Below, piece by piece: positions 21,990-22,605 of a stretch of 64,000 nt of DNA (within the stretch, counting starts at the first letter, position 1; each line of letters opens with the position of its first letter). Under the pieces are notes generated by a model. The model had not been told where the DNA came from. It worked only from the letters and a program-made list of their open reading frames with translations, and ran no database searches. This stretch comes from Nitratireductor basaltis (lineage in GTDB: Bacteria > Pseudomonadota > Alphaproteobacteria > Rhizobiales > Rhizobiaceae), in contig NZ_JMQM01000001.1 in assembly GCF_000733725.1 (NCBI RefSeq), positions 930,001-994,000 of the forward strand, in the 5' to 3' direction. Both the position numbers and the translations under genes were made by a program.

Positions 21990-22063
21990 GTGGGGGAGAT
22001 AGGCAAAAGCGAACGGTAATGCAATTCACATGTGTGCCGCATGAAACGTCCGATAAAAAAACA

Positions 22064-22095
22064 ACACCCGCCGGGGGAGGAGGTCCGGCGGGTGT
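22064..22095 (-). ncRNA. cuckoo/CcsR-type stem-loop 3 and terminator
   Basis: Perfect 11-bp stem (22064-22074 with 22085-22095). On the minus strand the loop carries CCTCCTCCC (complement of 22075-22083). It is followed by TGTTTTTTT (22063-22055), so it doubles as the Rho-independent terminator of the DUF1127 transcript. It is the last of three such elements. Confidence 0.85.
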
Positions 22096-22107
22096 CGTTT
22101 TTGTCGA

Positions 22108-22135
22108 CCAGCTATCGGGAGGAGGAGAGAGCTGG
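22108..22135 (-). ncRNA. cuckoo/CcsR-type stem-loop 2
   Basis: A 6-bp stem CCAGCT/AGCTGG (22108-22113 with 22130-22135) holds a 16-nt loop containing CCTCCTCCC on the minus strand (complement of 22117-22125). It lies 12 nt from element 3 and 5 nt from element 1. Confidence 0.8.
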
Positions 22136-22140
22136 CCGTA

Positions 22141-22174
22141 TTCGTCAGAATTGGGAGGAGGTAATCCTGACGAA
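22141..22174 (-). ncRNA. cuckoo/CcsR-type stem-loop 1
   Basis: A perfect 8-bp stem TTCGTCAG/CTGACGAA (22141-22148 with 22167-22174) exposes an 18-nt loop with CCTCCTCCC on the minus strand (complement of 22153-22161). It begins 16 nt after the DUF1127 stop codon, so it would be cut from the 3' UTR of that mRNA. Confidence 0.82.
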
Positions 22175-22190
22175 ATCTCTTTGTCAGTCC

Positions 22191-22331
22191 TTAGAGGGAC
22201 TTGCGTGCAACGAACGGAATGTCGCCGCGGGCGATGCCGAGGTCGTTGAGCTCACGGCTGGAAAGGCGGCTCAGTTCGTTGACGGTCTGACGGTAACGGC
22301 GCCAGTTGCGGTAATTGCGAATGATGTTCAT
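22191..22331 (-). CDS. DUF1127 small basic protein
   Basis: A 46-aa protein rich in Arg with the DUF1127 core NELSRLSSRELNDLGIARGD at its C-terminal half and an N-terminal NYRNWRRYRQTV helix. The start at 22331 (MNIIRN) was chosen because the domain begins there; the frame stays open a further 40 codons upstream with no similarity. In Rhodobacter, and reportedly other alphaproteobacteria, small DUF1127 proteins bind RNA or affect sRNA maturation, phosphate/carbon metabolism or stress responses. Three CCUCCUCCC stem-loops follow in its 3' UTR, as in the Rhodobacter ccaF1-ccsR locus. Function here is inferred from that arrangement. Confidence 0.9.
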   Translation of the reverse strand: MNIIRNYRNWRRYRQTVNELSRLSSRELNDLGIARGDIPFVARKSL

Positions 22332-22605
22332 CTGTCTTGCTCGCTTCAGAATTCGTGTGGGGTGTTGATCACCCGTTGCGATGGACAGATAAGCCCATTG
22401 AGCCATGCGTAAAAGTGCCAATGTTGCATAGCAGCGATGCAGATTGTGCATTGCAACATCAAAGTGTCACAAAGCGGCCTGAGACGCGTCACACAGGTTA
22501 AATGAAGATGAAGAATCGATGACGCTCTAGACGGCCGTGGAAGCGTCTCAATGCTGAAGATATGTAAAAAGCTCCCAAAAATCCTTGCACCAGGCCAATT
22601 TCCCT
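22332..22605. other. intergenic region between DUF1127 and tRNA-Leu promoter
   Basis: No gene seen. It must hold the minus-strand promoter of the DUF1127 transcript, but no convincing sigma-70 or heat-shock-type -35/-10 pair could be read. The one clear structure is the inverted repeat listed at 22421-22459. Confidence 0.4.
22421..22459. promoter_or_regulatory. inverted repeat upstream of DUF1127 gene
   Basis: ATGTTGCA (22421-22428) and TGCAACAT (22452-22459) form a perfect 8-bp dyad with a 23-nt spacer, 90-128 nt upstream of the DUF1127 start. It could be a regulator site for the DUF1127/cuckoo operon. No regulator family is implied. Confidence 0.3.

Follow-up and report, generated by a model that had tools for sequence, protein, structure and literature searches.

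A gene for a 46-residue DUF1127 protein and a complete small RNA sequence of the ar14 (NfeR1) family lie one directly behind the other in the window, the 64,000-nt stretch of Nitratireductor basaltis DNA analyzed here. We consider it probable that they form a two-product locus, in which one LsrB-activated transcript would yield both the DUF1127 protein and, from its 3′ UTR, an anti-Shine-Dalgarno (aSD) sRNA that silences mRNAs carrying GGGAGGAG. The LysR-type regulator LsrB (VtlR) would activate transcription at a conserved box upstream of the DUF1127 gene, and the single transcript would carry the 46-aa coding sequence followed by the ar14-family RNA with its own terminator. Endonuclease cleavage would then free the RNA from the 3′ UTR. 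Its three exposed CCUCCUCCC loops would serve as redundant pairing partners for purine-rich ribosome-binding sites (GGGAGGAG) of target mRNAs and would block translation, the likeliest targets being solute-uptake genes. LsrB binding, the single transcript, its cleavage, and the targets of the RNA are what we infer; the gene, the RNA fold with its constant loops on covarying stems, the conserved linkage, and a conserved upstream block that fits published boxes are what the sequences show.

The protein gene (22191–22331, minus strand) matches Pfam PF06568 with 63.6 bits against a gathering threshold of 23.3 (E = 1.4e-17). A 46-codon DUF1127 gene had been predicted on this strand, and both strand and coordinates proved correct. 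The protein is rich in arginine (9 R and 1 K by residue count), and its N-terminus, MNxxRNYRNWRRYRQ, is common to the genus loci in alignment; an NCBIfam scan returned no name for this small protein or for the LysR regulator considered below. About 11 nt past the stop codon begins the ar14 sequence (22059–22179, minus strand), which matches Rfam RF02344 over the full length of the model (1–123 of 123) with 95.4 bits against a gathering threshold of 58.8 (E = 3e-16, whole window). The neighboring gene trmFO (GIDA family) begins 67 nt past the third hairpin of this RNA on the same strand. On the other side of the locus, a tRNA gene and an apparent trigger factor gene, the latter judged by eye, are divergent.

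Folding and covariation define three minus-strand hairpins within this sequence. The first has 12 bp (22141–22174, loop CCUCCUCCC at 22153–22161), the second 11 bp, as 9 + 2 around a 1x1 mismatch (22105–22138, loop CCUCCUCCC at 22117–22125), and the third 18 bp (22057–22102, loop CCUCCUCCC at 22075–22083), ending in a U-run and constituting an intrinsic terminator. In the fold, CCUCCUCCC is unpaired in each hairpin, as in ar14 RNAs, and CCTCCTCCC occurs on the minus strand at these three loop positions with no further copies in the window. The array has a minimum free energy of −60.8 kcal/mol (z = −7.7), and none of 200 shuffles folded equally well. The original prediction of three hairpins behind DUF1127, with the motif in every loop and a U-run after the last, is borne out by the motif positions and the fold, although its stems of 8, 6, and 11 bp were too short. 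It had also called the array CcsR-type and proposed a covariance search. Covariance scoring against Rfam models placed ar14 (NfeR1) above its cut-off and the CcsR1 model (RF02791) below, at 33.8 bits against a gathering threshold of 65.3. We therefore reject the CcsR1 family for this RNA: the label is apt for the layout of the locus but wrong as an Rfam family, because the CcsR1 model fails.

Comparison with relatives provides strong evidence that both structure and loop are under selection. We aligned 28 arrays, each directly 3′ of a DUF1127 gene. CCUCCUCCC is kept without variation in each of the three loops, with one row shifted by a base in the third, whereas 28 of the 41 stem pairs have changed on both sides, including all 8 pairs in the inner helix of hairpin 2 and 10 of the 18 in hairpin 3. 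Double-sided changes filled 138 cells, against 48 in shuffles. The covariation score was 0.354, compared with 0.193 for shuffled alignments and 0.058–0.117 with partners slid, a control in which the use of the window's own fold as the structure somewhat favors the real pairing. The constancy of the loops over covarying stems thus implies selection on structure and loop. Selection on the loop had been anticipated, as had a cuckoo-type locus yielding both a protein and an sRNA, and the constant loops and compensatory pairs uphold both ideas; in the genus and among its near relatives, the loops are not lost where the DUF1127 gene is kept.

The physical linkage of gene and array extends well beyond the genus. 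The ar14 model scored above cut-off in all 16 genus genomes searched and in 37 of 61 genomes overall. We took 80 loci around trmFO from named genomes: a DUF1127 gene lies upstream of trmFO in 67 of them and a CCUCCUCC hairpin array in 38, and every one of these 38 also has a DUF1127 gene. The gene precedes the array in Phyllobacterium, Mesorhizobium, Pseudaminobacter, Brucella, Aurantimonas, and Oricola, as well as in the genus of the window. In nearly all loci of this order, the DUF1127 stop codon stands 20–33 nt ahead of the first motif, which leaves little space for a separate sRNA promoter. This order is not universal, since arrays come first in Rhizobium, Sinorhizobium, Shinella, and others, with DUF1127 genes ∼70–500 nt downstream. 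In Sinorhizobium, Shinella, and relatives (L051, L055, L057, L063, and L075), ar14-like arrays are followed by DUF1127 genes and then by trmFO. No arrays were found at the Bradyrhizobium, Methylobacterium, and Microvirga trmFO loci that have DUF1127. Array size also varies. The three-hairpin unit is repeated two to three times in tandem behind DUF1127 in Mesorhizobium and Pseudaminobacter, and the Aurantimonas array has 7–8 hairpins (loci listed for repeated hairpins: L042, L046, L043, L044, L047, L050, L052, L059, L079, and L091). In the same family, a genome reduced to 1.1 Mb retains ar14 at 61.7 bits, just over the cut-off (G021:C2:250697-250814).

Upstream of the DUF1127 gene, genus alignment reveals a conserved 37-nt block, TGTTGCAATGCACAATCTGCATCGCTGCTATGCAACA (22422–22458, minus strand), which is a putative LsrB/VtlR binding region. 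It is kept in 10 of 10 genus loci and occurs once in the genome with up to three mismatches allowed. Within it, TGCA-N6-GCAT (22437–22450, minus strand) matches exactly the LsrB box described for the promoter of NfeR1 (PMC10746234), and GCAT-N3-TG-N3-T (22428–22440, minus strand) matches exactly the proposed VtlR box (PMC7486931); 0.04 occurrences of the two boxes overlapped in this way are expected in the window. The same alignment offers TATCTG (22386–22391, minus strand) as a candidate −10 element, and TATCTR lies ∼30 nt downstream of the conserved block in nearly all genus loci. If TATCTG is taken as the −10 element, the predicted start would fall near 22379, with the LsrB box spanning roughly −71 to −58, close to the position reported for the box of NfeR1, −72 to −57 (PMC10746234). 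A sigma-70 scan found no clear core promoter and gave one weak match, at 22470–22443, upstream of the DUF1127 gene.

Related loci carry the same kind of site. A matrix built from ten genus loci, applied at a threshold of 12 (the best shuffled sequence scored 11.6), found sites at 21 of 23 loci in which DUF1127 precedes an array, one of which (L039, the same locus as L068) also contributed to the matrix, and at 0 of 24 hairpin-less DUF1127 loci (Fisher 2e-11). The Brucella VtlR motif CAATGCAGCCATGCA comes from PMC12595884 and is independent of the genus-built matrix. Among 32 array loci, it was present at 19 with up to two mismatches and at 28 with up to three; the corresponding counts in 375 control stretches were 0 and 2. 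The loci in both tests are related, and their numbers therefore overstate independence. The copy in the window differs from this motif at three positions, yet matches both degenerate boxes exactly. Overall, the control region resembles an LsrB/VtlR site rather than the RpoHI/RpoHII promoter described for Rhodobacter ccaF1 (PMC10253847).

The genome also contains a candidate regulator. A LysR protein encoded directly behind thioredoxin reductase (trxB) finds its best PDB match in the Agrobacterium tumefaciens LsrB structure (9hh1, E = 1e-138). Judged by this match and its position beside trxB, the protein is an LsrB orthologue; lsrB–trxB linkage is typical within the order (PMC11975290). LsrB is indispensable for NfeR1 transcription (PMC10746234), and DUF1127 genes of Brucella are activated by VtlR (PMC12595884). 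In this genome, trxB, the lsrB orthologue, and an ar15/AbcR RNA adjoin one another (L167 and L200, G000:C1 575421-577621).

The alternatives differ mainly in how the RNA would be transcribed. It might be autonomous, with a promoter inside the DUF1127 gene, much as NfeR1 of Sinorhizobium has its own promoter and is an independent 123-nt transcript (PMC10746234). Arrays without an upstream DUF1127 gene do exist within the same genus, but the RNA here starts so close to the stop codon, and both the sole sigma-70-like match and the LsrB-like box lie upstream of the gene, that we regard autonomy as unlikely. It is a little harder still to credit a CcsR-type locus that follows the Rhodobacter wiring, with an RpoH-type promoter, stress induction, and maturation by RNase E, assisted by the DUF1127 protein, into single-hairpin RNAs. 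The order of DUF1127 and then CCUCCUCCC hairpins is the same, an association published for CIN1 (PMC10253847), and the CcsR1 model does give a sub-threshold match. Against this wiring stand that model's failure to reach its cut-off where ar14 matches at full length, and the fit of the conserved upstream block to LsrB/VtlR boxes.

Two further explanations are less likely again. The hairpins could act in cis only, as a 3′ UTR stabilizer and terminator; their place directly behind the gene and the terminator formed by the third hairpin would suit such a role, which is nonetheless very doubtful, as stability does not require constant 9-nt loops on changing stems, and family members act in trans via these loops (PMC10746234). 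The probability that the motifs are chance repeats of a pyrimidine sequence is negligible. CCTCCTCCC is not rare, with 31 copies across the 3.5-Mb genome (3.55 Mb in 5 contigs), a number not above that of the reversed control. However, chance does not explain three copies crowded into 87 nt with each one in a hairpin loop, because the fold z-score, the Rfam ar14 match, and the conservation rule it out; conserved loops and stems refute this explanation.

Returning to the two-product reading, we asked which mRNAs the loops might engage. NfeR1 blocks translation through three redundant aSD loops that pair with ribosome-binding sites (PMC10746234). GGGAGGAG with an ATG 3–9 nt downstream occurs at 38 genome sites, against 4 for the reversed pattern. 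Among the first 30 of these sites, at least 7 of 20 ORFs of ≥100 aa encode parts of uptake systems (two DctP, one sugar-binding protein, one NMT1-like protein, TctC, TctB, and one ABC-transporter ATPase). At control AAGGAGG sites, 1 of 14 ORFs was an uptake gene, in a set too small for significance; the Pfam scan covered part of the ORFs in both sets, and the target set is itself small. As candidate targets of the sRNA, the uptake genes are suggestive only.

It is useful to compare the locus with the systems it resembles. Like ar14/NfeR1 of Sinorhizobium meliloti (RF02344), the RNA has three hairpins with CCUCCUCCC in each loop and matches the model at full length, and an LsrB-type box lies at a similar distance from the predicted start; unlike the autonomous NfeR1 transcript, it lies in a DUF1127 3′ UTR, with the box upstream of DUF1127. 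It shares with CcsR1–4/ccaF1 of Rhodobacter sphaeroides (RF02791; CIN1) the succession of DUF1127 and CCUCCUCCC hairpins on the same strand. The covariance model of that family failed here, however, and Rhodobacter has four separate RNAs, an RpoHI/RpoHII promoter, and a DUF1127 protein of 71 aa rather than 46. The CIN1 locus of the cuckoo RNAs comprises a short DUF1127 gene with CcsR-like CCUCCUCCC hairpins, and the present locus has this composition, the definition being taken second-hand from PMC10253847. Brucella BAB1_0914, BAB2_0512, and BAB2_0574 and Agrobacterium Atu1667, all VtlR-activated, likewise are short DUF1127 genes with an upstream VtlR box, but have been described as small-protein genes, with Atu1667 also described as a putative sRNA; in two other Brucella species (L049 and L056), we find ar14 hairpins downstream of DUF1127. 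Finally, AbcR1/AbcR2 (ar15, RF02345) are also LsrB/VtlR-regulated sRNAs with aSD-like loops and uptake-gene targets, but form a separate family, and the genome's one ar15 copy is elsewhere, just past lsrB.

Much of this is already published: the ar14 family and its aSD mechanism are described, and so is the association with DUF1127, at the CIN1 locus (PMC10253847). That LsrB controls NfeR1 and that VtlR controls DUF1127 genes has likewise been published, each on its own. What is new here is that NfeR1-type LsrB control and DUF1127 control appear to meet on one putative transcript; in the literature collection searched, which did not extend to the original cuckoo and CcaF1 papers, no paper mentions both NfeR1 and DUF1127. 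The locus thereby joins two lines of work, one on LsrB/VtlR control of DUF1127 proteins and the other on cuckoo-type anti-Shine-Dalgarno RNAs. More broadly, the LsrB/VtlR-activated DUF1127 genes beside trmFO in Phyllobacteriaceae, Brucella, and Aurantimonas relatives could be dual protein/sRNA genes, in which a redox regulator induces a cuckoo sRNA through a coding mRNA. We give this generalization slightly less than an even chance. If it is true, phenotypes ascribed to DUF1127 proteins in VtlR studies could stem partly from the 3′ UTR ar14 RNA. If gene and RNA are cotranscribed, phenotypes seen on deletion of the protein genes call for re-examination, and the locus would offer a simple test of signal sharing between an mRNA and its 3′ UTR sRNA.

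Elsewhere in the genome are four weak ar14-like places (L002–L005), at which an Rfam scan found no ar14 or other sRNA family above cut-off. One of them (L003:1580-1640, plus strand; G000:C1:875139-875273) has a single strong hairpin with a CCUCCUCCC loop and a U-run, and DUF1127 is absent nearby. Another (L002:1500-1604, minus strand; G000:C1:2150230-2150333) adjoins a tRNA gene and consists of two hairpins whose loops read CUCCUCC; its end resembles a terminator. It scores 36.9 bits with the ar14 model, below the cut-off, folds with z = −4.8, and is matched at the DNA level in 15 of the 16 genomes searched in the genus, its own included. This RNA is possibly an undescribed small cuckoo-like sRNA.
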